A stretch of DNA of 64,000 bases from Nostoc sp. B(2019) (GTDB taxonomy: Bacteria > Cyanobacteriota > Cyanobacteriia > Cyanobacteriales > Nostocaceae): the NCBI RefSeq assembly GCF_010091925.1, contig NZ_WVID01000001.1, positions 62,001-126,000 of the forward strand, in the 5' to 3' direction. The position numbers were made by a program, and so were the translations under genes. Below the pieces are notes generated by a model. The model did not search any database and had not been told where the DNA came from. It was given only the letters and a program-made list of their open reading frames with translations. Positions 7,296-61,577 of this stretch are shown here, in pieces (position 1 is the first letter of the stretch; the number at the start of each line of letters is the position of its first letter).

Positions 7296-8954
7296 TTAAT
7301 GCCATACAAACACTTTAGCTTCGTATGGCCCCAAGTCTGTCAGGATACCATCATCACCAGCTTCAACGTCATAATTACCTGTCCATTCGTGCCACGTACC
7401 ACCACTGGGGAAGTTAGGAACGTGATAGCCACCCAGGAAATTTTCTGAGAAATTTGCTACAACAACAACACGAGAACCTTCATCATTCCAGCGGCTATAA
7501 GCTAGTACCTTGGCCTCTGGATTTTCATGGATAAAATCAATATTCTCTGTGTAGAGAGCATGATTGTCTTTACGTAGATTGGTTAAGCCTTTGTAGTATT
7601 CAAATAAGCCACGATTTAGGTCATTACCTAACAGCGTCCAATCGATTTTGGCTGATTCTGGAGTTTTGGGTTTGTACTCGCCAAATTCTTCACCCATCCA
7701 AATCAAAGGAACTCCAACCGCTGTCATGAGGATTGCTGCTCCCAATTTAGTCCGTCTAAAAGCTTCTTCGTCAAAAATCTCACGATTTCCCAACTCTACC
7801 ATAACGTGGTTGTGGTCATGGTTAGTTAAGTAATTTACTACATTTGTTGCACCCATAAAGCCTTGACGTTTGCAGTCGATGACATCTTTAAGGCGCTCTA
7901 AATCAAATGTATCGCCGCAGATATGTTCGAGAATGCAGTGATAGAAACTATCATGCCAGCAACCATCCATTGGCCCATCTACATTGGTGATGCTGGTAGT
8001 TTCTGGAATATGTTCAGCAACGTTATAAAAAGGCTTCATGCTAGCAGTATTTTTTGCTTCTTGAACAATCCAGTGCATGAAGTCGTAGTTGGCAATTTGT
8101 CGTGCCGCATCATAACGGATACCATCTATGTGATATTCCCCAACCCAAAAACGGATCGTATCGCCAATAAATTTACGAGCAGGATAAGTCTCTAAATTCT
8201 CGTCGTAATGTTCGTAATTAAATTCAGGGCCCCAGTTATTGTCAGGGTCACGTGGCTCATGATGATACCAGTAATCATGGTCAATTTGTGTTAACGGACT
8301 GCCTGCTTCTGAGTGATTATAAATACCGTCAATAATGACGCGAATACCTCGACCATGACACTCATCAATCAGCTGCTTTAACTCAGCAGTAGAACCATAA
8401 CTAGATTCTGTTGCAAAGAAGTGGCGGGGGTTATAACCCCAGCTATAATCACCAGGATATTCTTTGAGTGGCATCAACTCAATAGCATTAATTCCTAATT
8501 CAGATAGGTGATCTAACTTTTCAATAACGTGCTTATACTTTCCGCGTGCGTGAGGGTCATCTTCACCACCAGAAAAGTCAGCTACATGTAGTTCATAAAT
8601 GACTAATTCATGGTCAGCTGGTAGAGGTTTGTCATCATGTTGCCAGATATATGTATCAACAATTCTTTCACCATCTTTAATTCTTACAACACCATTATCT
8701 TTTCCAGTTGATTCATCAATATCAGTTGCATAGGGATCTGTGACATCAACCCATTGTTCCGGTTCAAAAAACCATGAATTTGATTGGACACGGAATTTAT
8801 ATTGATAAGTGCCATCTTCTAGATCAACAGTTGTGCGAAAATAGCCATCATCACCTTTTTCCATTTGGATTTCTTGCCAATCAGAAAAAGAACCTATTAA
8901 TGAGGCTCCTTTGTTGTATGGTGCAAATAAATTAAATTCAACTGGCTTTGCCAT
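7296..8954 (-). CDS. CBM48 / GH13 alpha-amylase-family glycosidase, paralogue 2
   Basis: A 552-residue protein closely similar along its whole length to the GH13 enzyme at 430-2109. Counting from MAKPVEF, it has a CBM48 domain (about 1-65), then GH13 regions DGIYNH at 209-214, GIRYDAARQ with nucleophile D282, NVAEHIP with acid/base E314, and TNHDHNH with H379-D380. Region IV is canonical here, unlike paralogue 1. The frame is open 18 codons further (to 9008), but the paralogue aligns from MAKPVEF, so 8954 is preferred; no clear Shine-Dalgarno is seen at either position. It is a cytosolic alpha-glucan-active enzyme; exact activity is not determinable by eye. Confidence 0.85.
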   Translation of the reverse strand: MAKPVEFNLFAPYNKGASLIGSFSDWQEIQMEKGDDGYFRTTVDLEDGTYQYKFRVQSNSWFFEPEQWVDVTDPYATDIDESTGKDNGVVRIKDGERIVDTYIWQHDDKPLPADHELVIYELHVADFSGGEDDPHARGKYKHVIEKLDHLSELGINAIELMPLKEYPGDYSWGYNPRHFFATESSYGSTAELKQLIDECHGRGIRVIIDGIYNHSEAGSPLTQIDHDYWYHHEPRDPDNNWGPEFNYEHYDENLETYPARKFIGDTIRFWVGEYHIDGIRYDAARQIANYDFMHWIVQEAKNTASMKPFYNVAEHIPETTSITNVDGPMDGCWHDSFYHCILEHICGDTFDLERLKDVIDCKRQGFMGATNVVNYLTNHDHNHVMVELGNREIFDEEAFRRTKLGAAILMTAVGVPLIWMGEEFGEYKPKTPESAKIDWTLLGNDLNRGLFEYYKGLTNLRKDNHALYTENIDFIHENPEAKVLAYSRWNDEGSRVVVVANFSENFLGGYHVPNFPSGGTWHEWTGNYDVEAGDDGILTDLGPYEAKVFVWH

Positions 8955-10196: not shown

Positions 10197-10505
10197 ATGG
10201 GAATAGGTGACATATTCAGAAATATAGTTGGTGACAGGCAGAAAAGACGTGACGACGAGAACGAAGACCGCGAATACAAACGTCGTGGCGACGATGACGA
10301 AGACCGTGAATACAGACGTCGTGGCGACGATGACGAAGACCGTGAATACAGACGTCGTGGTGACGATAACGAAGACCGTGAATATAGACGTCGCGATGAC
10401 GAAGATGAAGACCGTGAATACAGATATCGCGGTGACGATGACGAAGACCGTGAATATAGACGTCGCGATGACGAAGACGACGAAGACGACGAAGACGACG
10501 ATTAA
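10197..10505 (+). CDS. charged tandem-repeat protein
   Basis: A 102-residue protein made almost entirely of Arg, Asp, Glu, Tyr and Gly. After an 18-residue head (MGIGDIFRNIVGDRQKRR) it carries about six near-identical 12-residue units of the pattern REYRRRGDDDED, encoded by 36-bp DNA repeats, and ends in an acidic tail (DDEDDEDDEDDD). Blocks of positive and negative charge alternate, so it should be intrinsically disordered and prone to multivalent self-association or RNA/ion binding; that is inference. AGGAG at 10184-10188, eight bases before the ATG, supports translation. The open frames seen on other strands over this repeat are by-products. Function unknown. Confidence 0.75.
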   Translation: MGIGDIFRNIVGDRQKRRDDENEDREYKRRGDDDEDREYRRRGDDDEDREYRRRGDDNEDREYRRRDDEDEDREYRYRGDDDEDREYRRRDDEDDEDDEDDD

Positions 10506-15289: not shown

Positions 15290-15991
15290 TTAGGCTTGAG
15301 ATGAGTTTACTTTGGAATTAAGTTTGCCATCTTCCAAATGGACGATGCGATCGGCAATGTCTAGGATACGGTTGTCATGAGTAACCATTAAGATAGTACA
15401 GCCTTGTTCTTTTGCCAGTTTTTGCATGAGATTAACTATATCTCGACCTGACTGACTATCAAGAGCGGCGGTGGGTTCATCTGCTAAAACAATTTTAGGA
15501 TGACTGACCAAAGCGCGAGCGATCGCAACTCGTTGTTTTTGTCCCCCCGATAGTTTATCTGGATAGTAATGAAGATGATTCCCTAACCCTACCTGCTCTA
15601 GCATTTGGGCTGAACGAGTTTGTATCTGTTGTAACCCTATATACTTGTGCAATTCTAAACTCATTTTGACGTTCTGGAGTGCCGTTAAACTACCATGCAG
15701 GTTATTTGCTTGAAAGATATAACCGTTATGGCGTCGTACTTGCGTTAGTATTTCAGCACTAGCACTGCAAAGTTCTTGCCCTAACACCCGCAAACTGCCG
15801 AACTGAGCGGAACGTAACCCACCCACCAAGGTCAACAGCGTAGTTTTACCAGAACCAGACGGCCCGGTCATGATAATAATTTCACCAGCGTTAATCTCTA
15901 GGTTGATGTTAAAAAGAACTTGTTTGCGGAGTGAACCATGACCAAAATAGTGGTCAAGATTTTTAATAGAAATTACTAGTTCGTTAGTCAT
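15290..15991 (-). CDS. devA: DevA-type ABC exporter ATPase (operon 1)
   Basis: A 233-residue ABC ATPase. Walker A is GPSGSGKTT at 43-51, the signature LSGGQ at 147-151, and Walker B IVLADEP at 167-173. It belongs to the MacB/LolD-like group that pairs with DevC permease and DevB adaptor to form TolC-dependent exporters; the founding member in Anabaena exports heterocyst glycolipid. It is the last gene of devB-devC-devA operon 1. The operon at 21164-24415 is a close copy. The cargo cannot be inferred from sequence, and the dev symbols here denote family, not orthology. Confidence 0.9.
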   Translation of the reverse strand: MTNELVISIKNLDHYFGHGSLRKQVLFNINLEINAGEIIIMTGPSGSGKTTLLTLVGGLRSAQFGSLRVLGQELCSASAEILTQVRRHNGYIFQANNLHGSLTALQNVKMSLELHKYIGLQQIQTRSAQMLEQVGLGNHLHYYPDKLSGGQKQRVAIARALVSHPKIVLADEPTAALDSQSGRDIVNLMQKLAKEQGCTILMVTHDNRILDIADRIVHLEDGKLNSKVNSSQA

Positions 15992-16051
15992 AAGTAGACG
16001 GATTTATCGTGATGACCGTCATTTGTCCTTACTCCTAACAAATGACAACTT

Positions 16052-17227
16052 TTAGAACATATCAGCAGGGTCAGCACCTTGAAGTTTACGGGTAGCGATC
16101 GCCCCGGAAATTGCACACATCATAATCGTCAGCACTAGCACTTGGAATCCCCGAATTGCAGTCATGTACATCGGTAAATTTGTGGCATGGCGAGTCAACT
16201 GGTAAAGTGCCAAAGATACACCCAATCCAGGAAAGAAGCCCAACGCGGCTAAAATCACTGCTTCTTCAAATACCACACCCAACAGGTAATAATGACGATA
16301 CCCCATTGCTTTGAAAGTGGCATATTCTCTAACGTGAGAATTGACATCTGTGGAGAGGACTTGATAGACGATAATCACCCCCACTACAAATCCCATCGAT
16401 ACACCTAGGCTGAAAATAAACCCAATTGGCGAGTTTGTTCTCCAAAAGTTGTTCTCAAATTCAATAAATTCTGCGTTAGTCAGCACTTTGACATCATCTC
16501 TCAAGTAGGCTTTCAAGACTGCTGCTACCTTTTTCGGGTCGTAGCCTGGTTGTACTTGAATCAAACCTAAACTGACACTGCTTGAGTTTCGCCGAGGAAA
16601 TAGCCGCAAAAGGTTCTGAGAACTGGTGATTAAGCTGCCATCAGTCCCAAAGGAAGCTCCAACTTTGAATAAACCACTAATAGTAATCGTACGTCCTTCT
16701 ATTTCGGTAGTCAGGGTTTTACCTTGGTCAATTTGGGCGATCGCTTTTTGGTATTCTCCTCTAGCACCACGGTCGAATAAAACGGTATTTGGCAGCTTAA
16801 TCGTCTGCAATTGCTGGTTAACATCTAATAAGTCAAACGCTGGCTTATCTGGATCGAATCCAATCAGTAACACCCCCGTCTCACGGCGTGTTTGGGGATT
16901 TTTCCACGTGATGTAGTTAAAATACATTGCTTGTGCAGACTTCACCCCTGGTATATCCATTGCTTGATACAATCGTCGACGAGAAAACGTAGACAGACCT
17001 TGCAAATTACGAGCTTGGGGACTAATTAAAACAATGTCTGCTTGTAAACTGCGATGCAATCTGGTGTTACTGTCATATAACGCCGTCTGAAAACCTAGTT
17101 GCATAAACATCAGAACATCAGCAAAGGCAATACCTGACAATGCTACCAACAAACGACTTTTTTCATGGCTCAATTGCAACCATCCTAGAGGTGTTCGCCG
17201 CCGCAGTTGTTGGAGTAGTCTGATCAT
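16052..17227 (-). CDS. devC: DevC-type ABC exporter permease (operon 1)
   Basis: A 391-residue inner-membrane permease of the FtsX/MacB fold. One transmembrane helix lies near the N-terminus (LLVALSGIAFADVLMFMQLGF), then a large periplasmic domain, then three C-terminal helices (around FIFSLGVSMGFVVGVIIVYQ, GVVFEEAVILAALGFFPGLG and VLVLTIMMCAISGAIA). The frame is open back to a TTG overlapping the devB stop at 17287-17290, but the paralogue begins at the equivalent of MIRLLQQLRRRTPLGW, so ATG 17227 is chosen. It ends TRKLQGADPADMF, as does the operon 2 copy. Confidence 0.9.
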   Translation of the reverse strand: MIRLLQQLRRRTPLGWLQLSHEKSRLLVALSGIAFADVLMFMQLGFQTALYDSNTRLHRSLQADIVLISPQARNLQGLSTFSRRRLYQAMDIPGVKSAQAMYFNYITWKNPQTRRETGVLLIGFDPDKPAFDLLDVNQQLQTIKLPNTVLFDRGARGEYQKAIAQIDQGKTLTTEIEGRTITISGLFKVGASFGTDGSLITSSQNLLRLFPRRNSSSVSLGLIQVQPGYDPKKVAAVLKAYLRDDVKVLTNAEFIEFENNFWRTNSPIGFIFSLGVSMGFVVGVIIVYQVLSTDVNSHVREYATFKAMGYRHYYLLGVVFEEAVILAALGFFPGLGVSLALYQLTRHATNLPMYMTAIRGFQVLVLTIMMCAISGAIATRKLQGADPADMF

Positions 17228-17253
17228 ACGAGGAGCACAAGGGGAATAGGTAT

Positions 17254-17277
17254 TGACTTTTGACTTTTGACTTTTGA
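17254..17277. repeat. TGACTTT microsatellite between devB and devC
   Basis: Three and a half copies of the 7-bp unit TGACTTT in the gap between the devB stop and the chosen devC start. Because the unit is not a multiple of three, copy-number change would shift any translation begun at the upstream TTG. Confidence 0.7.
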
Positions 17278-17286
17278 CCCTTAATT

Positions 17287-18534
17287 TCAAAGTTCAATTA
17301 CTGCCTTAACTTGCATATTGGTTAAACTGGCAGCTTTCAAGCTGGAGGCATCGTCAAGCCGGATAAAGACTTCTACTACTCTGTTGTCGATATTACTAAT
17401 AGGGTCAGTATTAATTACACTCTGCCGCCGCACTTGTAAGCCTAAACGCTCCACTGTTCCGTGTAACTCAATAGGAAGGAAATCGCCAACTGCTTGCACC
17501 CGCTGCTTTGGACGTACTTTGCTGATATCGCTTTCGTATACTTCAGCTATGACATACATCTGGCTAGTTTGCCCAATATCGGCAATACCATTATTTGATA
17601 CCAATTCCCCAGGGCGAGCGTGGATCTCGAATACTTGCCCATCTTGGAGCGATCGCTTTGCTAAATCCTTCTCTTTTGAAGAGGCGATCGCAAACGGCCA
17701 ACGCACGTAAGCTTGTTGCAAATTTGCTTTTGCTAAGTTCATGGCTGCTACAGCACGATTGACTTCTGCTTGTGCAGCCTCTACATCGACTTTCGGCACA
17801 TCTGTAATTTTATCTAGTGTTGCTGTAGCTTCTTTAATTTGTTGCTGGCTAGCTGACTGACTGCGATTTAACTGCGCTTGCGCTTCTTGCAGACTTTTTT
17901 GGGCAGTTTCTAGATTTAAGCGCTTGCTGTCTCGTTGGGAAGCGGAAATTGCTCCTTTTTCATAGAGTGTCTGATAACGTTGTTCTTCGGCTTCGGCGTT
18001 ACGCATAGTAGCTTGTAACCGCTCAATCGTGGCTGTTTGAGCGTTAATATCGCCTTGGCTTTCTGCTTTTAGGCGGGCGATCGCCGCTTGTTGAGCTGCA
18101 ATCTCGCCGCGTTTAGCACCCGCTTGCGTCCGCATCAGGTTTGCCTGTGCTACCTTTACTTCTTCCTGCGCCTCTTTTAAAGCTGCTTGCAAGCGATCGC
18201 GACTGTCCAAAATCGCAATTATTTGCCCTGGCTTTACCCTATCGCCTTCCTTCACGAGTAACTGTTCTACCCGACTTCCTTCCGTAGACGCGGTAGCAGA
18301 GAGTTTAATTACCTTTCCCCGTGGTTCGATCCGCCCCAGGGCTGTGACAGTTTTCAACTGTGGTAATTTTGTGATTGCTGTTTGTACCTCTTGATTCGCA
18401 TAATTTTGCCAGCGTTTTACTGTATAAAAGCTGATTCCGCCAACCAATAAAGATGCGATTATAGCGATAAAAACGGATGGACGCAGAATAGACTTAGGGG
18501 ACAATGTGTACCCTAGCTTTGAGTTTCGCACCAT
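17287..18534 (-). CDS. devB: DevB-type membrane-fusion (HlyD-like) adaptor (operon 1)
   Basis: A 415-residue periplasmic adaptor. An N-terminal membrane anchor (about residues 20-40, VFIAIIASLLVGGISFYTV) is followed by a lipoyl/barrel half (VKEGDRVKPGQIIAIL), a long coiled-coil hairpin rich in Ala, Gln and Glu (about 105-255), the second lipoyl half and a C-terminal beta domain ending in QVKAVIEL. It bridges DevAC to an outer-membrane TolC-like channel. ATG at 18534 has AGAGGT six bases upstream. It is the first gene of the operon; no local regulator is apparent, unlike operon 2. Confidence 0.9.
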   Translation of the reverse strand: MVRNSKLGYTLSPKSILRPSVFIAIIASLLVGGISFYTVKRWQNYANQEVQTAITKLPQLKTVTALGRIEPRGKVIKLSATASTEGSRVEQLLVKEGDRVKPGQIIAILDSRDRLQAALKEAQEEVKVAQANLMRTQAGAKRGEIAAQQAAIARLKAESQGDINAQTATIERLQATMRNAEAEEQRYQTLYEKGAISASQRDSKRLNLETAQKSLQEAQAQLNRSQSASQQQIKEATATLDKITDVPKVDVEAAQAEVNRAVAAMNLAKANLQQAYVRWPFAIASSKEKDLAKRSLQDGQVFEIHARPGELVSNNGIADIGQTSQMYVIAEVYESDISKVRPKQRVQAVGDFLPIELHGTVERLGLQVRRQSVINTDPISNIDNRVVEVFIRLDDASSLKAASLTNMQVKAVIEL

Positions 18535-19143: not shown

Positions 19144-19380
19144 ACCAAGTCCACCTCCGTGGACTAACGAAAAATCAAGGGTTTTTAACCCACGGAGGTG
19201 GAGAGAAGTCTGAGCGGAGGCTTCCGACGCTCCTACGTCGCTAACGCTGCGCTATCCGTTGGCGCAGCCCGCCGTAGGCATCAGAACTTCTCCCAAGGGG
19301 AGACGCCAAAGGCGAACGGGGTTTTGTCTGTATAGCCGCGACTTCCAGTCGCCAGGGCTAGCAACCTCTTAGAGGCGGGT
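19144..19380. repeat. composite cluster of dispersed repeats
   Basis: Several modules in series: an inverted repeat TCCACCTCCGTGG (19150-19162) / CCACGGAGGTGGA (19190-19202); a GC-rich CTACGTCGCTAACGCTGCGC stretch; GCAGCCCGCCGTAGGCATCA; and a 34-bp unit at 19284-19317 beginning GAACTTCTCCCAAGGGGAGA. That last unit is identical, in reverse complement, to 59115-59148 inside the chlH paralogue. Confidence 0.8.
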
Positions 19381-21163: not shown

Positions 21164-21868
21164 CTAAACTGCTGAGACAACGGCTCGATCATTTACTAGC
21201 TTGCCATCTTCCATGTGGACGATGCGATCGGCAATATCGAGAATGCGATTGTCATGAGTTACTAAAAGAATGGTACAGCCTTGTTCTTTTGCCAGTTTTT
21301 GCATGAGTGTTACCACATCTCTACCCGATTTACTGTCAAGGGCGGCGGTGGGTTCATCTGCTAAGACAATTTTAGGATGACTGACTAGGGCGCGAGCGAT
21401 CGCAACTCTTTGTTTTTGTCCCCCCGATAAATCATCGGGATAGTAATTGATACGCTCTTTTAATCCTACCTCCTCTAACATTTGTGCTGAGCGAGTTTTC
21501 ATTTCTGGCAGCGACATATTTTTGTGCAGTTCCAAGCCCATTTTGACGTTCTGGAGTGCTGTCAGGCTAGCGTGTAGGTTGTGCGCTTGGAAAATATAAC
21601 CGTTACTGCGTCGCGCCTGAGTAAGTTGTGCTGCACTAGCACCACAAAGTTCTTGTCCCAATATCTCCAAATTACCAGATTGAGCAGAACGCAACCCACC
21701 TACCAAGGTGAGAAGTGTAGTTTTACCAGAACCAGACGGCCCAGTCATAATGATAATTTCGCCAGCGTTAATCTCCAAGTTAATATCAAACAAAACTTGC
21801 TTACGCAGTTGACCCTGACCAAAATAGTGATCAAGATTTTTAATAGAAATAACGGGTTCGCTAGTCAT
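21164..21868 (-). CDS. devA: DevA-type ABC exporter ATPase (operon 2)
   Basis: A 234-residue ABC ATPase nearly collinear with the one at 15290-15991. Walker A GPSGSGKTT (43-51), LSGGQ and IVLADEP are all intact. It completes the second devBCA operon and is followed by nuiA. The high similarity of the two operons suggests duplication, with the nucA-nuiA segment lying between the copies. Confidence 0.9.
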   Translation of the reverse strand: MTSEPVISIKNLDHYFGQGQLRKQVLFDINLEINAGEIIIMTGPSGSGKTTLLTLVGGLRSAQSGNLEILGQELCGASAAQLTQARRSNGYIFQAHNLHASLTALQNVKMGLELHKNMSLPEMKTRSAQMLEEVGLKERINYYPDDLSGGQKQRVAIARALVSHPKIVLADEPTAALDSKSGRDVVTLMQKLAKEQGCTILLVTHDNRILDIADRIVHMEDGKLVNDRAVVSAV

Positions 21869-21935
21869 AAGTAAGCGGATTCCTCATAATGACCGTCATT
21901 TGTCCTTAATCCTTAGTAATGACAAATGACAATTT

Positions 21936-23111
21936 TTAAAACATATCTGCGGGGTCAGCAGATTGAAGTTTACGCGTGGCGATCGCACCAGAAATTATAC
22001 ACATAATCATAGTCAGCATTAGTACCGTAATGGCTCGTGCTAAAGTCATGTAAAGTGGCAAATTGGTGGCATTGCGAGTTAGATGGTAAAGTCCAAAGGG
22101 TACGATCGCCCCTGGTATAAAACCCAATACTGCTAGAATTACTGCTTCTTCAAACACCACACCGAGTAAGTAGAGATTGTTGTACCCCATTGCTTTAAAG
22201 GTGGCGTACTCTTTTATATGGGCATTCACATCAGTAGAAAGGACTTGATAAACAATAATCACGCCCACTAAAAACCCCATTGTTACACCCAAGCTGAAAA
22301 TAAACCCGATGGCAGTATTTTCTTTCCAATAATTTTTTTCAAATTCAATAAATTCTTCGCGGGTCAATACTTTGACATCTTGACCTAGATAAGCGTTTAA
22401 AGTTGCTTTGATCTGCTTAGGGTCATAGCCTGGTTGCAGATTAACCAAACCTAGACTGACGCTGCTTGCTTCTCGCCCAGGAAATAGGCGCAAAAAGTTT
22501 TGGTCGCTAGTAATTAAGTTACCATCGGCAATGAAGGAAGCCCCAACTGAAAATAAGCCGCCAATGCTAACCGTCCGGCGGTCAATTTCAGTTGTAACGG
22601 ATTTTCCTTGTTCAATTTGGGCGATCGCTTCTTTATAATCTCCTCTAGAGGCGCGATCAAAAAGAACGGTATCTGGTAATTTAACCATATCTTTCTGGCG
22701 GTTCACATCAGCTAAGTTAAACACTTGCTGATCAGGATTGAACCCCATAACTAATATTGTTGTCTTCTGTTGTGTTTGGGGATTCTTCCAATCGATAAAG
22801 TTGACATACATGGCTTCTGCCGATTTTACCCCTGGTACATCCATTGCTTGAAACAGTCGCCGCCTTGTAAAAGTAGACATATTTGCCAAGTTACGTGCTT
22901 GGGGACTGATGACAAATATGTCACCCTGCATACTGCGATGCAGCACAGTATTACTTTCAAACAGAGCATCTTGAAACCCTAACTGCATGAACATCAGGAC
23001 ATCAGCGAAGGCAATGCCTGACAATGCTACCAACAGACGCCCCCTTTCGTGACTCAGTTGCAGCCAACCTAGGGGGGTTCGTTGCCGCAATTGCTGAATA
23101 AATCCAATCAC
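21936..23111 (-). CDS. devC: DevC-type ABC exporter permease (operon 2)
   Basis: A 391-residue permease, the same length as DevC of operon 1, with the same topology: an N-terminal helix, a periplasmic domain, three C-terminal helices and an ADPADMF terminus. The start is GTG at 23111; its GTGA overlaps the devB stop by 4 bp, implying translational coupling. That tight coupling contrasts with operon 1, where the microsatellite separates the two genes. Confidence 0.9.
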   Translation of the reverse strand: MIGFIQQLRQRTPLGWLQLSHERGRLLVALSGIAFADVLMFMQLGFQDALFESNTVLHRSMQGDIFVISPQARNLANMSTFTRRRLFQAMDVPGVKSAEAMYVNFIDWKNPQTQQKTTILVMGFNPDQQVFNLADVNRQKDMVKLPDTVLFDRASRGDYKEAIAQIEQGKSVTTEIDRRTVSIGGLFSVGASFIADGNLITSDQNFLRLFPGREASSVSLGLVNLQPGYDPKQIKATLNAYLGQDVKVLTREEFIEFEKNYWKENTAIGFIFSLGVTMGFLVGVIIVYQVLSTDVNAHIKEYATFKAMGYNNLYLLGVVFEEAVILAVLGFIPGAIVPFGLYHLTRNATNLPLYMTLARAITVLMLTMIMCIISGAIATRKLQSADPADMF

Positions 23112-24415
23112 AGTTCAATTACCGCCTTGACTTGTAGATTAGTAAACTTAGAAGCTTTTTGGCTAGATAGTTTATTCAGTTGCACATGAACTTCCACTAC
23201 CCTGGCATCAATATTGCTAGAAGGATCACTGTTGATCAGATTTTGCCGCTGCACTTGCATACCAATCCAATCCACCCTTCCTTGTAATTCATTGGGTAGA
23301 GACTCGCTGCTGATCCGCACCGCCTGTCCCTGACGCACTTTGTTAATATCACTTTGGTAGACTTCTGCCACTGCATACATCTGGTCAGTTTGACCTAAAT
23401 CTACGATTCCCTGTTCACCAACTGTTTCTCCGGCTCTTGTATTAATCTTGAGAATTTGCCCGGTTTTGGGAGCGTGGATATATGCCTGAGTTAGTTGCGC
23501 TTTAATTTTCTCTGCGGTGGCTTGAGCGCTTTCTACTTCTGCTTGGGCGTTTGCTATATCTGTGGGACGGATTTCTGCGGTTTGATTCAGGGTAGCTTTG
23601 GCTTCGTTAATTTGCTGTTGCAAGCTGGCGATGGTTTGGTTGCGGTTGGCTTTGGCTTCGTTAAGCTGCTGTTCTAGGGTGGCTATAGTTCTTGCTTTGG
23701 TGGCTTGGCTTTCGATTAACTGCTGAGAGGAAGTTTCTGCACTTAAACGTCTGCTATCAACTTCTTGACTGGAAATCGCGCCGCTTTTGTATAAAGTCTC
23801 GTAGCGTTGAACATCTGCTTGGGCGTTTTGCCTCTCGGCTGCGACGCGAGCAACTGTTGCTTCTAGCTGCTGTTTTTGTCCTTGTAGTTCTGCTTCTAAA
23901 CGGTTAATTGTGGCTTGCTGAGTTTTGATGTTTCCCTCTAGTTCCACTTCCAAACGTTTTATGGTAGCTTCCCGCGCTCCAATTTCTCCTTGTTTTGCGC
24001 CTGCTCTTACCTGGTTAAGGCGGGATTTGGCAACTTTAACTTGTTTTTGTGCTTCACCCAAACTCGCTTGAAGGCGATCGCGACTGTCCATAATGGCAAT
24101 TACCTGCCCAGCTTTGACGCGATCGCCTTCTCTGACTAACAGTTTTTCCACCCGATTCCCTTCATTAGAAGAAGGTGCAGAAAGTTTTATTACCTCTTCG
24201 TTTGGTTCCAACCGTCCCAATGCTGTGACTGTTTTTACTACTGGTTGAACGGCTACTGGCGCTTCTTGCTTTTGATTAGCCTTAGCCTGCAACTGTAGCA
24301 CCGTGTAAACACTAGCTCCGCCTACAGCTAAAGATGCGATTATTACTAACCAAATATGCGATCGTAAAAAATTTTGGGAAGACCTTAAACTCTCTATCTT
24401 CCGATTTTGCGCCAT
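23108..24415 (-). CDS. devB: DevB-type membrane-fusion adaptor (operon 2)
   Basis: A 435-residue HlyD-like adaptor with one membrane anchor (HIWLVIIASLAVGGASVYTV), a lipoyl half (VREGDRVKAGQVIAIM) and a coiled-coil hairpin longer than in operon 1. The extra length contains repeated heptad-like units (IKRLEVELEG, INRLEAELQG; LEQQLNEAKANRNQT, LQQQINEAKATLNQT). A longer hairpin reaches further across the periplasm. It starts at 24415, just downstream of the TetR-type operator. Confidence 0.9.
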   Translation of the reverse strand: MAQNRKIESLRSSQNFLRSHIWLVIIASLAVGGASVYTVLQLQAKANQKQEAPVAVQPVVKTVTALGRLEPNEEVIKLSAPSSNEGNRVEKLLVREGDRVKAGQVIAIMDSRDRLQASLGEAQKQVKVAKSRLNQVRAGAKQGEIGAREATIKRLEVELEGNIKTQQATINRLEAELQGQKQQLEATVARVAAERQNAQADVQRYETLYKSGAISSQEVDSRRLSAETSSQQLIESQATKARTIATLEQQLNEAKANRNQTIASLQQQINEAKATLNQTAEIRPTDIANAQAEVESAQATAEKIKAQLTQAYIHAPKTGQILKINTRAGETVGEQGIVDLGQTDQMYAVAEVYQSDINKVRQGQAVRISSESLPNELQGRVDWIGMQVQRQNLINSDPSSNIDARVVEVHVQLNKLSSQKASKFTNLQVKAVIEL

Positions 24416-47923: not shown

Positions 47924-48949
47924 ATGGCATCAGGAATGATGGTCGCAGGTAAATGGATAACCGATGAGAATAAGCAAAATCAAAGCGGTGAGTTCCATGA
48001 GATACCAACAACGTTTCGCGATCGCATAACCGCAGATGGAACTAGCGGGTTTAAGGCAGAAGCAGGGCGCTATCATCTCTACGTTTCCTTGGCGTGTCCG
48101 TGGGCCCATCGCACCTTAATTATGCGAGAACTCAAAGGATTGAATGATGCAATCTCAGTCTCTATCGTCGATCCAATTATGAGCGATAAAGGCTGGATGT
48201 TTTCTGAAGCACCGGGAGCCATTCCTGACTCGGTAAATTACGCTCAATATTTGCAAGAGATCTACCTAAAAGCCGATCCCAAATACACAGGACGAGTAAC
48301 TGTTCCGGTGTTGTGGGATAAGCGCTCCTCAACAATCGTCAACAATGAATCTCGCGAAATTATGCGGATGTTTGATGTAGAGTGTGCAGAATTGGCAACG
48401 CAGAAAATAGACTTATACCCACGCGATTTACAACAGAAGATTGATGAAACGATCAATGCAATTTATATGCCAATTAATGCTGGTGTATATCGCTCTGGTT
48501 TTGCGACTTCGCAAGCAGCCTACGAAGATGCGGTGATTGAACTCTTCAAGAATTTAGATCGATGGGAAACCGTTCTGAGCAAGCAGCGCTATTTATGTGG
48601 TGATCAACTCACTGAAGCTGATATTTGCATGTTTGTAACGCTGTATCGCTTCGACTCAGTGTATTACGGTCACTTTAAGTGCAATTTGCGGCGAATTCTC
48701 GACTATCCAAACCTCTGGAATTATCTAAAGGATCTATATCAGCATCCTGAATTCAAAGCGACGTGCAATCTAGACTATACTAAGCGCGGCTATTACATGA
48801 GTATGACCGAGATTAATCCAAATCGAATTGTGCCGAAGGGGCCAATCATCGATTTTGACGAACTGCACGATCGCGTAGGCGTAGCCCATCGTAGCGAAAA
48901 GTCGGAGCGGCGGTTTCCGCCGTTGGCGCAGCCCACCGCAGGCATCTGA
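47924..48949 (+). CDS. glutathionyl-hydroquinone reductase (YqjG/Xi-class GST) with repeat-encoded C-terminus
   Basis: A 341-residue Xi-class GST. The thioredoxin-like domain carries YHLYVSLACPWAHRTLIM with catalytic C58 in CPW, and a C-terminal all-alpha domain follows (LTEADICMFVTLYRFD). It reduces glutathionylated hydroquinones in the cytosol. TAGGAG lies about 8 bases before the ATG. Odd: family members normally end shortly after the GPI(I/L)DF...HDR segment; here the frame instead runs into a dispersed repeat beginning at 48873, adding about 25 residues (VGVAHRSEKSERRFPPLAQP...). The repeat has replaced the native stop. Confidence 0.9.
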   Translation: MASGMMVAGKWITDENKQNQSGEFHEIPTTFRDRITADGTSGFKAEAGRYHLYVSLACPWAHRTLIMRELKGLNDAISVSIVDPIMSDKGWMFSEAPGAIPDSVNYAQYLQEIYLKADPKYTGRVTVPVLWDKRSSTIVNNESREIMRMFDVECAELATQKIDLYPRDLQQKIDETINAIYMPINAGVYRSGFATSQAAYEDAVIELFKNLDRWETVLSKQRYLCGDQLTEADICMFVTLYRFDSVYYGHFKCNLRRILDYPNLWNYLKDLYQHPEFKATCNLDYTKRGYYMSMTEINPNRIVPKGPIIDFDELHDRVGVAHRSEKSERRFPPLAQPTAGI

Positions 48950-48970: not shown

Positions 48971-49115
48971 TTCGGTAAGGCGTAGTTGCAATATGCCAAA
49001 GGCATTAAGCGAAGCTTATCGAATTATCCCCCTTCTGTCACTTTGGGGGATTAAAAAAGAATAAAAATATGTTATCTGAATTCAAATCAAAAGTCTTGCA
49101 CCAGTAAGCCTGCCA

Positions 49116-51672
49116 GTTTCAATCCCTAATAGGGATTTTATGTTATTGAAATTAGCGATATGAGCCGGACAGATGCCCAAGACCGGTTTCAATCCCTAAT
49201 AGGGATTTTATGTTATTGAAATTTGATGTACGACCCGCTCCAGGAATACCAAGAACTCGTTTCAATCCCTAATAGGGATTTTATGTTATTGAAATGGAAC
49301 CCAGTGGCAGGGCATTCAAGCCATATTGTTTCAATCCCTAATAGGGATTTTATGTTATTGAAATAGAGAGGATGAATTTGCGCTTTGGGTCTTTGCTCAA
49401 GTTTCAATCCCTAATAGGGATTTTATGTTATTGAAATAGTACCAGCGAAGAACTTCAGTAAGCTCGACAAGGGTTTCAATCCCTAATAGGGATTTTATGT
49501 TATTGAAATTCTTTTGCACAAACTACTACTACCAGTACTAATCCGTTTCAATCCCTAATAGGGATTTTATGTTATTGAAATTTGGGAGAGGATTTTAGCC
49601 AGATCAGAATACGTTTCAATCCCTAATAGGGATTTTATGTTATTGAAATGTGAGGTAATACCTGTAAGAACTATAGAAGGATATCCTGTTTCAATCCCTA
49701 ATAGGGATTTTATGTTATTGAAATTTGCGCTGAGTAATATGAACATGGGGCCCGCTGCTGTTTCAATCCCTAATAGGGATTTTATGTTATTGAAATCAGC
49801 GATCGCTTGCCAGTCATCTAAAGGAATTACTAGTTTCAATCCCTAATAGGGATTTTATGTTATTGAAATCAAACGCGATTCATAAAATGCGGATAATTTT
49901 TTAGTTTCAATCCCTAATAGGGATTTTATGTTATTGAAATCCTGCTTCCATTCAGTGCAATCGCTTGTCAGTTTTGCGTTTCAATCCCTAATAGGGATTT
50001 TATGTTATTGAAATCAAAAAATATTAAAGCATATTTATGAGCAGTGTAAGTTTCAATCCCTAATAGGGATTTTATGTTATTGAAATGCTATTAGAATGTG
50101 TCTGGTAGAAATTATTAGACTTGTTTCAATCCCTAATAGGGATTTTATGTTATTGAAATGTTAAAAAAGAGTATATTGCCCAAACCGGAAGCGGTTTCAA
50201 TCCCTAATAGGGATTTTATGTTATTGAAATTGATTCCGGGGGGTAAGAAGGTTCGTTTTGATCGCGTTTCAATCCCTAATAGGGATTTTATGTTATTGAA
50301 ATTTTGTCATTTTAGTTCAATTGTGTGTAAAATTTTGTTTCAATCCCTAATAGGGATTTTATGTTATTGAAATTTACGTTTGTTATAGTAAAAATGATTT
50401 CAGCATTAGTTTCAATCCCTAATAGGGATTTTATGTTATTGAAATTAGTTAGCAAAGGTTGGTAATATAAAATATGACAGTGTTTCAATCCCTAATAGGG
50501 ATTTTATGTTATTGAAATACTCAAGACGATAGTGACGAAGATATCTACCAAGGAGTTTCAATCCCTAATAGGGATTTTATGTTATTGAAATCTAAAACTC
50601 ATGGGTGAATAGTACCCCTTAAATAATATGTTTCAATCCCTAATAGGGATTTTATGTTATTGAAATAAATTATACCCCTCTGAACTAGATGTCATTTGAG
50701 ATGTTTCAATCCCTAATAGGGATTTTATGTTATTGAAATATTGCAAAGATGTTGATTGAAAAATCAGGATGTGTTTCAATCCCTAATAGGGATTTTATGT
50801 TATTGAAATCCGGATTGAGCGGCAAGCCTGGGTAGAAATGCCCTGTTTCAATCCCTAATAGGGATTTTATGTTATTGAAATACAAGTGATCACTTTTTTT
50901 AAAAAATAAGGACGCTATGGTTTCAATCCCTAATAGGGATTTTATGTTATTGAAATTTATGCCAGGAAGAATAGATGAAATAGGTAATCGCTATGTTTCA
51001 ATCCCTAATAGGGATTTTATGTTATTGAAATGTTCGCAGATCGCAATATTGCCGCTTTGAAACTTTGTTTCAATCCCTAATAGGGATTTTATGTTATTGA
51101 AATAGGATCGATTGTATCAGCACCAGCTAGAACCTTATCGTTTCAATCCCTAATAGGGATTTTATGTTATTGAAATTATTTTTAAAAACTAATCGCGCCG
51201 ATCGCTTTGATGTTTCAATCCCTAATAGGGATTTTATGTTATTGAAATCTAAAGGCGCTGGAGAATTTTGAAGGTAAGCTGTTTCAATCCCTAATAGGGA
51301 TTTTATGTTATTGAAATACCAAGTTCATCACCGCGCTTTTTTACCGCCACCAGTTTCAATCCCTAATAGGGATTTTATGTTATTGAAATCCCGGAATCAT
51401 CGTCCCATCTTTGTATTCATTGGTTTCAATCCCTAATAGGGATTTTATGTTATTGAAATTCCAGCACGTTCTAGCACTTCTGAAATAGTTAAGGTTTCAA
51501 TCCCTAATAGGGATTTTATGTTATTGAAATTCATACTGTAATTTACCTCCAGCAAATTTCATCTGTTTCAATCCCTAATAGGGATTTTATGTTATTGAAA
51601 TAAGCGGATCCTTATTTCTTCGATAATTTGAATATGTTTCAATCCCTAATAGGGATTTTATGTTATTGAAAT
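49116..51672 (-). CRISPR. CRISPR array, 36 repeats / 35 spacers, no adjacent cas genes
   Basis: Thirty-six copies of a 37-bp repeat beginning GTTTCAATCCCTAATAGGGA and ending TTTTATGTTATTGAAAT, with 35 different-looking spacers of 31-38 bp. By eye all 36 repeats are identical, including both terminal ones. The repeat has an internal palindrome (AATCCCTA-A-TAGGGATT). Read on the minus strand it ends in ATTGAAAC, the usual 3' end of type I/III repeats and source of the 8-nt crRNA handle, so leftward transcription is inferred, with the leader at the right. First repeat 49116-49152, last 51636-51672. No cas gene is present within the window on either side. Apparent small open frames inside are repeat artefacts. 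Confidence 0.98.
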
Positions 51673-57660: not shown

Positions 57661-57736
57661 TAGCCATGGCTTCTAACTTTATTGCCTATTTAATAAAATA
57701 GCCATGGCTTCTAACTTTATTGCCTATTTAATAAAA
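57661..57736. repeat. two perfect 38-bp tandem copies
   Basis: TAGCCATGGCTTCTAACTTT and 18 further bases occur at 57661-57698 and again at 57699-57736, between the SH3b gene and the stop of the chlH paralogue. Non-coding; looks like a recent tandem duplication. Confidence 0.85.
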
Positions 57737-57764: not shown

Positions 57765-60700
57765 TTAGTTAATTATTACACCCTCAAGTTCCTCATCTGT
57801 CAACTCATATAACTGGCGCAACTTATCCAACTTATCTGCATCAGTTTGCCAGAAACCGCGCCCATGCGCCTCTAACATTCTCCCCAAAATATTGCGAAAA
57901 GCTTCAGGATTTGCTTTGCGTAATTTCTCCGCCATCTCTGCATCTAAAGCATAAGTATCAGCCGCTTGGTCATATACCCAATCATCGGTAAAATCAGCAG
58001 TACCAGCCCAACCAATCAACGCCGTCATCCGTTGAGAAATTTCAAACGCACCACCAGAACCTTGATTCGCCATTGCTTGCGCCCATTTGGGATTTACTAA
58101 CTTAGTGCGATACTCCATGCGGAGTAAATCATCTAAATTGCGGGGTGTAGTGTCTTTCGAGAAACTTTCTACAAAGCTAGTGGTAACTTTTTTACCGCGT
58201 TGTTTTTCTGCTGCCTTTTTCAAACCGCCCGTATTGGCGTAATATTCTTGAATATCGGTTAAACCGTATTCTACCGAATCGATTTCTTGAACAATGCGAT
58301 CGCTTGTTTTTAACAAAGTATTCAACACTTCTGGTCTAGCCTGGCCTTTATCTTGTCTCCCGTAGCTAAACACGTTGCGACTTTGCCAAGTATTGCCTAA
58401 CTCCTCGCCAGATTCCCAGTTACCATCCACCACCCTATCATTGACCAAAGAACCAAAATCACCAGCAGGATTAGAAAACAATCTCGCCGATACATTTTCC
58501 ACACCTTGTGCTTTTAAAGCCAAAGCATGTTTTTTAATAAAATTCTGGTCTTCTGGTTCATCAGCATCAGCTGCTCGTTGAAACAAATCATCCAACAATT
58601 CAATGATATTTACAAAACTATCCCGGAAAATTCCCGATAAATTTCCTAATATATCAATGCGAGGATGTCCAACTTCCGCCAACGGTTTTAATTGATAACG
58701 AACAATTCTTCCAGTCCCTTCCTTAACAGGTTCAGCCCCCGCCAACTCCAACAGAATACCTAGAGATTCACCCTTAGTTTTAATTGCATCCAATCCCCAC
58801 AACATCACAGCCACCGTTTCGGGATATGTCCCATGTTCATCCAAATGTTGGGCGATAATTTTTTGAGCAATTTCTTTTCCCCGTTCATACGCCGCAGGTG
58901 AAGGCATACGATAAGGATCTAAAGCATGAATATTCCTACCCGTTGGCAACACCCCAGCCCCATCCCGCAACAAATCCCCACCAGGTGCAGGAGGAATAAA
59001 CTCCCCATTCAATCCCCGCAAAAGATTAGTTAACTCATCCGTAGTTTGCATCAACAAATCTATAATTTGCCTTTCCTCCTCTTCTATCTCTTCTCTGCGT
59101 TCTCTGTGCCCACCGTTCGCCTTTGGCGTCTCCCCTTGGGAGAAGTTCAGATCGGCGGAAGCCGCCGCTCCGACTTCTCTCTGCGGTTCGTTTTTTTCTG
59201 CCAACTCCTCCCCAAAATAAGCCTCCAAATACGACGCCATATCCTCCTCATTCGGTGCTTCACCCAACGTATGCAACCCAGAAGAAAACAGACGATTTTC
59301 TAACACTTGCAAATATTCGTACAACTTCACCAGATAATCGTCAAAAGCATGAGCGCTAAACATCCGAATGTTTTCTGGAGTAAAAGGAATACCCAACCTT
59401 TTCGCATCCTCAAACGCACAATCTGCATCCAAACCAGAGTCTACAATCTTTTTACAAATCGCTTCCTTAAGAACATAATTCTTTTGCGGGTCTTCTCGAT
59501 ACTCCGAAATTAAATCGCGCAACGCCACCAATTCTTTATACAAACCAGCACGACCATAAGGCGGGACATTATGCGAAATTAACACCCCATAACCGCGACG
59601 TTTTGCCAAAATTGACTCAGAAGGATTATTCGCCGCATATATATATAGATTAGGCAAATCTCCTAACAAAATATCCGACCAAGAATAACCCGTATTTCCC
59701 AAAGGAGAACCAGGCAACCATTCCACTGTACCGTGCATTCCAAAGTGAACTATAGCATCAGCTTGAAATTGATTTTGCAGCCATTTATAGTAAGCTGCAT
59801 ATTGAGGATGAGGGGTTAAATCTCGTTCAAACATTAAGCGCATGGGGTCGCCTTGTATCCCCAAAGGTGGCTGTACACCTATCCACACATTCCCTAACTG
59901 CACACCGCCAATCTGGAATTCATCGCCATAAGTTTTAATACCTGTTCCCGTCAAAGATTTCCATTGTTTTTCAATGCGGGAGGATTGCAGATATCCCAGC
60001 CATTTTTCTAATGTGCGGACGTTGACGCTATTGTTCGGTAGAGACGTTGCATGCTTGTTCGGTAGAGACGTTGCATGCAACGTCTCTACATTGGTTGGGT
60101 ATGATTCATCCGCCTCTTTTACCCAGCGAATCAACTCTTCTCCGTCGTCTGGCAAATCTCCGACAGTGTAACCTTGGTCTTTGAGTGCTTGAAGAAATTT
60201 CAGGAGACTGCGCGGGACATTTAATAATGCAGCTGTGCCTACAGCGCCGTAACCTGGAGGAAATCCATACAAAATAATCGCAATTTTACGTTCCGATGCA
60301 GGTTTTTGCCGCAAAGCCACCCAGCTTTTGACCCTACCAATTAATCGCTGCACCCGTTCAGGAACCAGATAAATATTTTCACCCACCAAACCACCGAGGG
60401 GAACAGTGTCAATTGCGCCATCCAATTCTGGCAAAGCATACAACACTACACTTTGCAATCCGCCAATACCTTGGCGTGTCCACGAGTAAATATCTTGAAT
60501 TAGCAGGGGTGCAGCAACTATGTAGGGTACATTCTTGGCGGTGAGGATGCGCTTTGCTACTTCTATCTGGCGTCCTGCTTCCATTGAACCAGCCGGGCCA
60601 CCTACTAGAGGAAAGCCAATTGTCGAAACAACAGCATCTACTCTAACTGCTTCATTAGAAAGTGAAGGCGTTTCAATATTACCGAGTTGCCGTTGTTGAA

Positions 60701-61577
60701 TTTCGTAATCGGTTGTCATCCAATCCCGTACCGCTACATGTCCTTCCACACCGTTAATGAAGATGGGTAAAGGGATTAACCCGGCTTCCTCAAAACGGCG
60801 AATCAGTTGAGGAATGTAGGGTTGTTGGGTGATGACGTGTTTGCGGTAGAGTAAAATACCAACGACGGGTTGTGTAGAGACGTTGCATGCAACGTCTCTA
60901 CAAGAGGTTTGATACCATTCTAGGTATGCTTGCGGTGATTCAAAAAATCCTGGATAGTCGGGATGGAGTAATCCCATGTTCGGGGTTTCGATGGGTGGGG
61001 GAATATCACCGACTTTTAAATCTAAGTATTTTTCTGCTAGTGTCCAGAATAATGAGGCTACGTTTTCTGAACCGCCAGCATTCCAGTAACCATAGATAAT
61101 TAGCCAGTTGCGTAAGTCTTGGACTTTTTGCACTGGTACGTACTTGAGGAGTTTAGGTCCAATTTTTAAGAAACTAATATAACCAGCAAGTTTGTCTTCT
61201 TCTCGTCCGTTGCTAAATTTGTCGAGGATGAATTTAACTGGCTTTGGCATTCCTTTGGGTTTGTCGCCAATGGCAAAAGCACCCAGCTTGGTTAAACTCA
61301 TCAATTCCAAGGCTGACTCGAACACGAGACGGATGGGAATTTGGGCAATGCGATCGCGCAGCCACAAAACCTGATCATAATCAAATAGCAAGCTGCCGAA
61401 AAATACATCAGCGCCATCAAGTGCTGCTTCCACCTCCAGGCGCTTAGTGGTAATATCGCGATCGCTAAACACCCGAATATCCAACTCTGGACAGCGAGAG
61501 TTAGCTAAAAAAGCTGCTTTCCTGTACAAGTCAGCGTTGAACGATTCAAACCCAGCAATCAAGACGATGCGTTTCAT
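57765..61577 (-). CDS. chlH: magnesium chelatase subunit H paralogue (ChlH/BchH) with in-frame repeat insertions
   Basis: A 1270-residue porphyrin-binding subunit. The N-terminal DUF3479-like domain starts MKRIVLIAGFESFNADLYRK; the CobN/Mg-chelatase core follows (IVHFGMHGTVEWLPG, GRNIHALDPYRMPSP, LWGLDAIKTKGES, GRMLEAHGRGFWQ). It binds protoporphyrin IX for Mg insertion by ChlI/ChlD. The N-terminus differs from the main cyanobacterial ChlH of about 1330 residues, so this is the second, shorter paralogue (usually about 1220, by recollection). Three sites carry dispersed repeats in frame: about 226-235, 497-516 and 796-827; these explain the extra length. All look surface or linker positions, inferred from the open, alignable flanks. 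Confidence 0.88.
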   Translation of the reverse strand: MKRIVLIAGFESFNADLYRKAAFLANSRCPELDIRVFSDRDITTKRLEVEAALDGADVFFGSLLFDYDQVLWLRDRIAQIPIRLVFESALELMSLTKLGAFAIGDKPKGMPKPVKFILDKFSNGREEDKLAGYISFLKIGPKLLKYVPVQKVQDLRNWLIIYGYWNAGGSENVASLFWTLAEKYLDLKVGDIPPPIETPNMGLLHPDYPGFFESPQAYLEWYQTSCRDVACNVSTQPVVGILLYRKHVITQQPYIPQLIRRFEEAGLIPLPIFINGVEGHVAVRDWMTTDYEIQQRQLGNIETPSLSNEAVRVDAVVSTIGFPLVGGPAGSMEAGRQIEVAKRILTAKNVPYIVAAPLLIQDIYSWTRQGIGGLQSVVLYALPELDGAIDTVPLGGLVGENIYLVPERVQRLIGRVKSWVALRQKPASERKIAIILYGFPPGYGAVGTAALLNVPRSLLKFLQALKDQGYTVGDLPDDGEELIRWVKEADESYPTNVETLHATSLPNKHATSLPNNSVNVRTLEKWLGYLQSSRIEKQWKSLTGTGIKTYGDEFQIGGVQLGNVWIGVQPPLGIQGDPMRLMFERDLTPHPQYAAYYKWLQNQFQADAIVHFGMHGTVEWLPGSPLGNTGYSWSDILLGDLPNLYIYAANNPSESILAKRRGYGVLISHNVPPYGRAGLYKELVALRDLISEYREDPQKNYVLKEAICKKIVDSGLDADCAFEDAKRLGIPFTPENIRMFSAHAFDDYLVKLYEYLQVLENRLFSSGLHTLGEAPNEEDMASYLEAYFGEELAEKNEPQREVGAAASADLNFSQGETPKANGGHRERREEIEEEERQIIDLLMQTTDELTNLLRGLNGEFIPPAPGGDLLRDGAGVLPTGRNIHALDPYRMPSPAAYERGKEIAQKIIAQHLDEHGTYPETVAVMLWGLDAIKTKGESLGILLELAGAEPVKEGTGRIVRYQLKPLAEVGHPRIDILGNLSGIFRDSFVNIIELLDDLFQRAADADEPEDQNFIKKHALALKAQGVENVSARLFSNPAGDFGSLVNDRVVDGNWESGEELGNTWQSRNVFSYGRQDKGQARPEVLNTLLKTSDRIVQEIDSVEYGLTDIQEYYANTGGLKKAAEKQRGKKVTTSFVESFSKDTTPRNLDDLLRMEYRTKLVNPKWAQAMANQGSGGAFEISQRMTALIGWAGTADFTDDWVYDQAADTYALDAEMAEKLRKANPEAFRNILGRMLEAHGRGFWQTDADKLDKLRQLYELTDEELEGVIIN
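59115..59148. repeat. 34-bp dispersed repeat inside chlH
   Basis: GTTCGCCTTTGGCGTCTCCC... through to GAAGTTC is the exact reverse complement of 19284-19317. Within chlH it encodes about residues 810-821 (NFSQGETPKAN). The adjoining 59150-59185 (GCGGAAGCCGCCGCTCCGAC) belongs to the family seen at 48901. Confidence 0.85.
60031..60089. repeat. palindromic repeat with 24-bp tandem duplication inside chlH
   Basis: The 24-bp unit TTGTTCGGTAGAGACGTTGC+ATGC occurs at 60031-60054 and 60055-60078; the second copy runs into the full 28-bp palindrome at 60062-60089. It encodes two copies of HATSLPN(K/N). Both unit sizes keep the frame. Confidence 0.85.
60874..60901. repeat. perfect 28-bp palindrome inside chlH
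   Basis: GTAGAGACGTTGCA followed by its exact reverse complement. The same palindrome is at 60062-60089. Here it encodes about residues 226-235 (CRDVACNVST). Confidence 0.88.

Follow-up and report, generated by a model that had tools for sequence, protein, structure and literature searches.

In 2008, Elhai et al. reportedly described the small dispersed repeats (SDR) of Nostoc punctiforme, which are said to be tiny, centred on the Nostocales, structured with compensatory changes, 21-27 nt in length and present in heptamer arrays and in minitransposons. SDR5 inserts precisely into HIP1 (PMC4390886), repeats of the SDR type are possibly mobile (PMC2884548), and the GTAG-tagged repetitive extragenic palindromes (REP), found in filamentous cyanobacteria among others, are small palindromes beginning with GTAG, some of them within open reading frames (ORFs), which show alternative complementary residues in the stem (Di Nocera et al. 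2013, PMC3733652). The Rickettsia palindromic elements (RPE), of about 150 bp, lie in frame in many unrelated protein genes (PMC10969869). In our study, a 64,000-nt stretch of Nostoc sp. B(2019) (contig NZ_WVID01000001.1, positions 62,001 to 126,000; the window) has been analysed, in which a gene for a large chelatase subunit of the ChlH/BchH type carries a perfect palindrome in frame at two sites and a different repeat at a third. The palindrome was found to be dispersed in the genome, and it probably reaches coding genes in frame mainly by replacing linker DNA, after which purifying selection would act, the survivors would mark permissive loops and the encoded peptides would be near-neutral.

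Results

The palindromic unit and its coding copies

The main features, in window coordinates, are as follows.
57765-61577, (-) strand: gene for a ChlH/BchH-type large chelatase subunit of 1270 aa, an uninterrupted ORF with a TIGR02025 match
60873-60902, (-) strand: 30-bp palindromic unit at site 1, read as CRDVACNVST
60062-60089, (-) strand: 28-bp palindrome at site 2, read as VETLHATSL

The repeat unit is a 30-bp perfect palindrome, TGTAGAGACG-N10-CGTCTCTACA. As originally predicted, the 28-mer GTAGAGACGTTGCATGCAACGTCTCTAC is exact at 60062-60089 and 60874-60901, in frame in the chelatase ORF at both sites; these are its only two exact occurrences in the 7.43-Mb genome, and it was matched in none of 100 shuffles. 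Twenty genome places match it at up to 3 mismatches, and the chelatase version TTGCATGCAA has one further genome copy at up to 1 mismatch, in a P-type-ATPase-like gene. The 16 outer bases GTAGAGAC...GTCTCTAC, searched at up to 1 mismatch, gave 48 places in the genome, and the reversed control pattern gave none. These outer bases are constant among the 48 places because the search required them, and the pairing of positions 1-4 with 28-25 (43, 47, 48 and 40 of 48) is to be read with the same requirement for paired ends. The inner five pairs, which were free in the search, covary, being complementary in 38 to 44 of the 48 places at pairs 10-14, with T-A in 22 and C-G in 17 places at pair 10/19, and T-A in 22, G-C in 14 and A-T in 5 at pair 11/18. 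Some intergenic copies lie inside larger repeated units, for example between ACCCGAAACCCT and ATGATTCATG, and several were seen by inspection to be flanked by CAAGGGT/CAAGAG-like and CCCGAAACCC units.

The family to which the window belongs contains GTAGAGACGTTNCATGNAACGTCTCTAC in 85 of 145 genomes, at 1 to 139 copies each; among the named relatives are Nostoc, Calothrix and Scytonema. In the rows listed for nine genomes, counting by hand showed the two free bases to pair with each other in 78 of 83 plus-strand rows; these rows also point to centre preferences by group, with CCATGG in g53 and GCATGC in g12. In other sets of listed rows, ACATGT is the commonest centre in this genus. The maximum of 139 copies of the GTT-centred palindrome among the 145 genomes was observed in G022 (g23).

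Fifteen of the 48 genome places fall within ORFs of at least 120 aa. Thirteen of these copies are convincing and are spread over 11 genes, to which names were given by us from their sequences: the window chelatase and a glycosyltransferase (two copies each), and comM, an amidase, smc, a PP2C-type phosphatase, menD, a P-type ATPase, a ClC-type channel, lysA and a ribonucleotide reductase (one each). The copy in recJ of this genome (L198) was not counted as convincing, being native-like with 18 of 28 positions symmetric although its outer bases match, nor was that in a ureF-like gene (L163), which may only precede the true start. Location within ORFs differs in frequency with the centre, with 12 of 22 places of the GTT...AAC type against 2 of 22 of the GC... 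type (Fisher p 0.0028) and one among the remaining 4. Two of the three frames of the unit are open, and the 15 ORF copies use just those two, reading VET in 13 and RD in 2 cases (p 0.007). In four congeners the GTT pattern occurs at 94 places, and from the 54 of these that were inspected 20 ORF readings were obtained; some are orthologous to copies described here, and others add acnB, authentic chlH, recF, a dehydrogenase, an alpha-2-macroglobulin-like protein and ORFs resembling nonribosomal peptide synthetases (NRPS). In-frame copies are hence not peculiar to this chlH paralogue; the original interpretation is partly supported, being right but too narrow.

Net length change and resemblance at the element ends

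Thirteen coding events, in which the 30-bp unit could be set against an element-free orthologue, were scored by script for net length change. The change was 0 in smc and in recJ (the latter in two genomes of another genus), -3 in the dehydrogenase, +3 in lysA, comM and recF, +6 in the amidase, +9 and +18 at the two glycosyltransferase sites, +21 in the ribonucleotide reductase and chlH, and +24 in the alpha-2-macroglobulin gene, so that 12 of the 13 comparisons lie below +30. The 30-bp unit therefore adds less than its own length in nearly every case, which makes the word insertion, as first applied to the palindrome, doubtful. The native sequence found at this place in smc of the congeners G105 and G084, as well as of two outgroups, is exactly as long.

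Immediately within the junctions, the native sequence was found to match the element ends at 97 of 208 positions, against 58.0 +/- 6.5 at random in-frame positions. With native-length limits the figure is 87 of 162 (random in-frame 46.4 +/- 5.7), without recJ, comM and lysA it is 55 of 114 (32.8 +/- 4.8), and for the seven events which we judged most robust it is 45 of 92 (26.9 +/- 4.3, p 0.0002). From a net gain that falls short of 30 bp in all but one of the 13 comparisons, and from the likeness of the displaced DNA to the element ends, we infer that linker DNA has been overwritten.

At site 1 of the chelatase gene, the outer arms and phase of the palindrome are constant; the centre is of the GTTG...CAAC type in this genus and of the GCGAT...ATCGC type (GCGATGAATCGC) in the next-nearest relatives such as L107. 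By sequence, it looks as if one family member overwrote another. In the near relatives L063 and L055, one- and two-arm versions of site 1 were observed (GTGGAGAC/GTCTCTAC and GTGGAGAC/GTCTCCAC), as in stepwise arm correction. It can tentatively be speculated, at somewhat less than even chance, that the palindrome spreads without insertion by copying over end-like DNA, so that it can enter genes whose length is critical, such as smc, with zero change, and that later members overwrite earlier ones and so homogenise the centres by lineage.

The chelatase gene

The 1270-aa protein scores 1631 bits with NCBIfam TIGR02025 (BchH; cut-off 829) and falls below the cut-offs of the NCBIfam models NF009140, NF009942 and CobN. 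Authentic ChlH is encoded elsewhere in the genome, at C42 (NF009140 2180 bits, cut-off 1300; it also passes TIGR02025), and a CobN-like protein at C76, of which a 518-aa piece has TIGR02257 as its top score. Owing to the TIGR02025 match and to these two proteins encoded elsewhere, the window protein is judged from its profile to be the third large chelatase subunit of the genome and a paralogue of authentic ChlH, in line with what had been claimed for it. The ratio of nonsynonymous to synonymous substitution rates (dN/dS) against six relatives, pooled over the gene outside the linkers, is 0.047-0.06; the gene is therefore maintained. In a phmmer search of PDB sequences, residues 56-782 and 846-1267 align with ChlH (4zhj/6ysg), and the third linker sits between the two aligned parts.

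The linkers and the repeats within them are located as follows.
60861-60911, (-) strand: hypervariable linker 1, residues 223-239; 11-64 aa, 29 lengths and 94 distinct sequences in 97 orthologues
60027-60104, (-) strand: hypervariable linker 2, residues 492-517; 6-48 aa, 25 lengths and 92 distinct sequences in 97 orthologues
60033-60056, (-) strand: extra 24-bp tandem unit at site 2, adjoining 60057-60080, not in L052 and L053
59058-59210, (-) strand: hypervariable linker 3, residues 790-840; 12-62 aa, 31 lengths and 97 distinct sequences in 97 orthologues
59110-59178, (-) strand: composite repeat insert of 69 bp at site 3, 23 residues; L053 has the same flanks without it
19280-19319, (+) strand: further copy in the window, covering a part of the site-3 repeat, 40 nt, 98% identical, inverted relative to 59113-59152
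48890-48922, (+) strand: window copy of the other half of the site-3 repeat, 33 nt, 88% identical, inverted relative to 59153-59185

At the protein level, CRDVACNVST, VETLHATSLPNK and the site-3 insert are the corresponding stretches of the chelatase. The 24-bp tandem unit that had been noticed beside the second palindrome is real; L052 and L053, from which it is absent, do carry a palindrome at site 2. Four congener genomes have palindromes at both chelatase sites, with up to 1 mismatch. The third site had been described as a 34-bp repeat that also exists between genes: a 31-bp core does recur on the opposite strand at 19287-19317, where no ORF reaches 80 aa, while the insert itself measures 69 bp and 23 residues. 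The copy at 48890-48922 sits within the 3' end of the ORF 47924-48949, and a near-identical copy of the site-3 repeat, including its NEPQRE flank, lies in frame in a large ORF at G000:C14, which was labelled NRPS-like by us from its sequence.

For the comparison of linker lengths, 131 loci were reduced to 112 having an ORF that matches at more than 1000 bits and then to 97 orthologues, leaving out two loci of the window gene itself (L001, L002) and 13 duplicates; intervals were delimited by columns with a conservation of 93% or more. Among the 97 orthologues, a length variation of at least 3 residues is seen in five intervals. Three of them are linkers 1-3, which are the only strongly length-variable intervals of the chelatase in this set, and the other two have two lengths each. 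Changes of linker class on the tree number at least 48, 40 and 28 at sites 1, 2 and 3 (97 rows), as indicative counts only, with classes defined by our own regular expressions and including 'short' and 'other'. The 30 loci of authentic ChlH differ by up to 5 residues at the N-terminus, and two additions, of 7 and 5 residues, were each found in a single genome, whereas 30 loci of the window chelatase gene show 15, 15 and 16 lengths at linkers 1, 2 and 3; this control is imperfectly matched, since the ChlH proteins have diverged less, with a median identity of 0.945 as compared with 0.862. The 7-residue ChlH addition fits the palindrome copy of G084, observed at L302:739-766 with the centre GTTAAATTTAAC and a net change of +21 bp in one of five genomes compared. 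The ChlH control was preferred to one based on local synteny, for which 200 kb each of G000 and G119 were compared and the aligned blocks amounted to no more than about 55 kb.

The linkers may therefore be described as permissive in length, and their freedom in this respect suggests that they are loops. This part of the original proposal stands; their placement as surface loops does not follow, as the AlphaFold model of residues 75-1270 (36-sequence alignment) was poor, with a mean predicted local distance difference test (pLDDT) score of 55.6, and no claim made here uses it. It had also been considered that orthologues might carry the same residues without the DNA palindrome. Across the 97 linker sets, the palindrome-encoded residues were found instead to track the DNA palindrome, and orthologues with other linker DNA have other linker residues.

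Several repeat families unrelated to one another are also found in the same chelatase linkers. Linkers with 36 nt or more of DNA were searched against the window and 80 loci (0.77 Mb), the chelatase gene being masked, and matched at least one other locus in 63 of 97, 26 of 92 and 39 of 97 cases at sites 1, 2 and 3, against 3 of 97, 4 of 92 and 2 of 97 for matched control segments elsewhere in the chelatase gene. Seven of the nine control matches fall on L077, which possibly carries a related chelatase. The linker counts are probably lower bounds, because the DNA searched is a small part of each genome. The recurrent unrelated families encode peptides such as IPPSPPYKGG, QASRLPLxxGGQDAHPT, GNREWG/HSPLPTPH and tandem RVSPN, and the QASRLP family occupies site 1 in some species and site 2 in others. 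A linker of recF is another that is common to unrelated repeats: this genome and two of its congeners have CAGCACTCAGCACTC-like repeats there, and a further two congeners have the palindrome (L342, L344, L346, L348, L350).

Other features of the window

An exact tandem duplication of 38 bp (TAGCCATGGC...) lies at 57661-57736, just downstream of the chelatase gene. An array resembling clustered regularly interspaced short palindromic repeats (CRISPR), with the repeat GTTTCAATCCCTAATAGGGATTTTATGTTATTGAAAT in about 36 units spaced by 68-75 nt, extends over 49086-51638 or slightly beyond; 37 copies were counted, and among the matches listed one, at 32917, is a chance match. A further array at 10212-10499 has a 36-nt tandem spacing, its 108-nt windows being 72-93% alike. 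Two diverged duplicate pairs are also present, 15321-18354 with 21198-24235 and 581-1717 with 7447-8565, with identities of 71-84% and 74-77% in the pieces listed.

Discussion

The arrangement of the coding copies is best explained, in our opinion, by a copy of the palindrome mainly replacing resident linker DNA at short stretches that resemble the element ends, rather than by plain insertion. This could come about by conversion of one copy by another, or by copying that is anchored by homology at a fork or a gap. Purifying selection would then retain the copies with an open frame and an intact fold, and for this reason the surviving sites would show which loops are permissive; for the enzyme, the peptides gained in this way are most likely close to neutral. 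The idea of a mobile repeat that tolerates or prefers in-frame landing holds as far as tolerance is concerned, while a preference is inseparable from selection against out-of-frame landing.

Several points weigh against replacement. The acnB copy, which in the alignment is a compound element or a partial one, has a net change of +30 by script. The +24 of the alpha-2-macroglobulin gene is high because the copy used is a double unit (a single copy in a relative adds about 9 in the alignment). Five comparisons (lysA, amidase, comM and both glycosyltransferase sites) use a relative from another genus, in which later indels are possible, and that of recJ likewise rests on the two genomes of another genus. 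The sequence taken as native in recJ, comM and lysA could be a decayed element, and the end resemblance could partly reflect the survival of those replacements that keep similar residues. The site-3 repeat is a clean 69-bp addition in comparison with L053, so that this other repeat family can insert. Moreover, 33 of the 48 genome places lie outside ORFs of 120 aa, and in these comparisons of sequences no mobility was observed and no enzyme identified.

The main rival to replacement is a classical insertion of a REP-like element, or of one resembling a miniature inverted-repeat transposable element (MITE), by a transposase, followed by rapid selective trimming of the flanking linker codons. The clean addition at site 3, the +30 of acnB, the several intergenic copies within larger repeated units and five matches to a Y1 transposase (PF01797) in the genome are in its favour. 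However, the palindrome was present at none of the five PF01797 loci within about 1.5 kb of flank on each side, two of the 12 coding comparisons below 30 bp show no length change at all, and target duplication was not evident on informal inspection of the alignments, for which no formal test was made; such a course of events is rather unlikely. Alternatively, template switching at imperfect inverted repeats might have created or perfected the palindromes where they stand, with no incoming DNA. The symmetric substitutions and their one-arm intermediates, seen at site 1 when L063 is compared with L055 and at site 2 in L053, agree with this, as does a native recJ sequence that already resembles the outer arms, but the replaced native smc sequence is not palindromic, and in-place correction alone is insufficient because the outer arms are one family sequence recurring at dozens of unrelated places. 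We hold this origin to be improbable.

An element under selection, whose RNA hairpin or peptide (VETLHxTSL) regulates the gene or the enzyme, would fit the covarying inner arms and the frame bias towards VET, as well as the strong RNA hairpins of three typed units, whose energies range from -17.6 to -21.4 kcal/mol and z-scores from -6.1 to -8.8. Such hairpins say nothing on function, though, because any perfect palindrome is expected to fold well, and the frame bias can stem from the survival of milder peptides. Relatives retain the same enzymes without the palindrome, and the unrelated linker sequences of other species are hard to square with a needed peptide or hairpin, which leaves regulation very improbable. 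A decaying gene or an assembly artefact, for which no point in favour was found, has a practically negligible chance in view of the core dN/dS of about 0.05 and of the palindromes at both sites in four congeners. Replacement of linker DNA followed by purifying selection is hence the preferred reading.

If it is true, a very small repeat moves by replacement and not by insertion, which would explain the survival of such elements in conserved coding genes. We know of no described small bacterial repeat that moves in this manner, and none appeared in a literature search by title and start of abstract that covered few subscription journals. The proteins carrying the palindrome would be a natural record of where enzymes tolerate new sequence. 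The chelatase family offers a ready experiment, as almost every species has natural sequences of its own in the three linkers, which together map where a large enzyme accepts foreign peptide; such a map can be used for tagging or engineering, and the family provides a system for measuring how repeats become protein sequence.

Comparison with known systems

In a literature search by title and start of abstract, which covered few subscription journals, no closer cyanobacterial in-frame palindrome was found. The GTAG-tagged REPs differ in that their GTAG is unpaired at one end (PMC3733652), whereas in the window palindrome GTAG pairs with CTAC, both chelatase copies being perfect over 28 bp. Nor does the palindrome flank a Y1 transposase gene, as a REP would flank its associated (RAYT) gene, at any of the five PF01797 loci within about 1.5 kb on each side. 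MITEs are marked by terminal inverted repeats, target duplication and net insertion; the net change of the palindrome lies below the unit length in 12 of 13 cases, and informal inspection showed no evident duplication. The likeness to the RPE lies in the in-frame occurrence in 11 unrelated genes, and the difference in a unit of 30 bp, in free-living cyanobacteria as hosts and in a gain that is mostly less than the length of the unit itself. As regards the SDR, the window palindrome is dispersed and compensated, and some of its intergenic copies lie in heptad-like arrays or larger units; its length of 28-30 nt compares with the 21-27 nt reportedly typical of them, and the palindrome may well belong to an SDR family. 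In-frame palindromes, in Rickettsia and among the REPs of several bacteria, and small mobile repeats of Nostoc are known already, and the unusual parts of the present case are the replacement mode proposed here and the chelatase linkers as recurrent landing pads.

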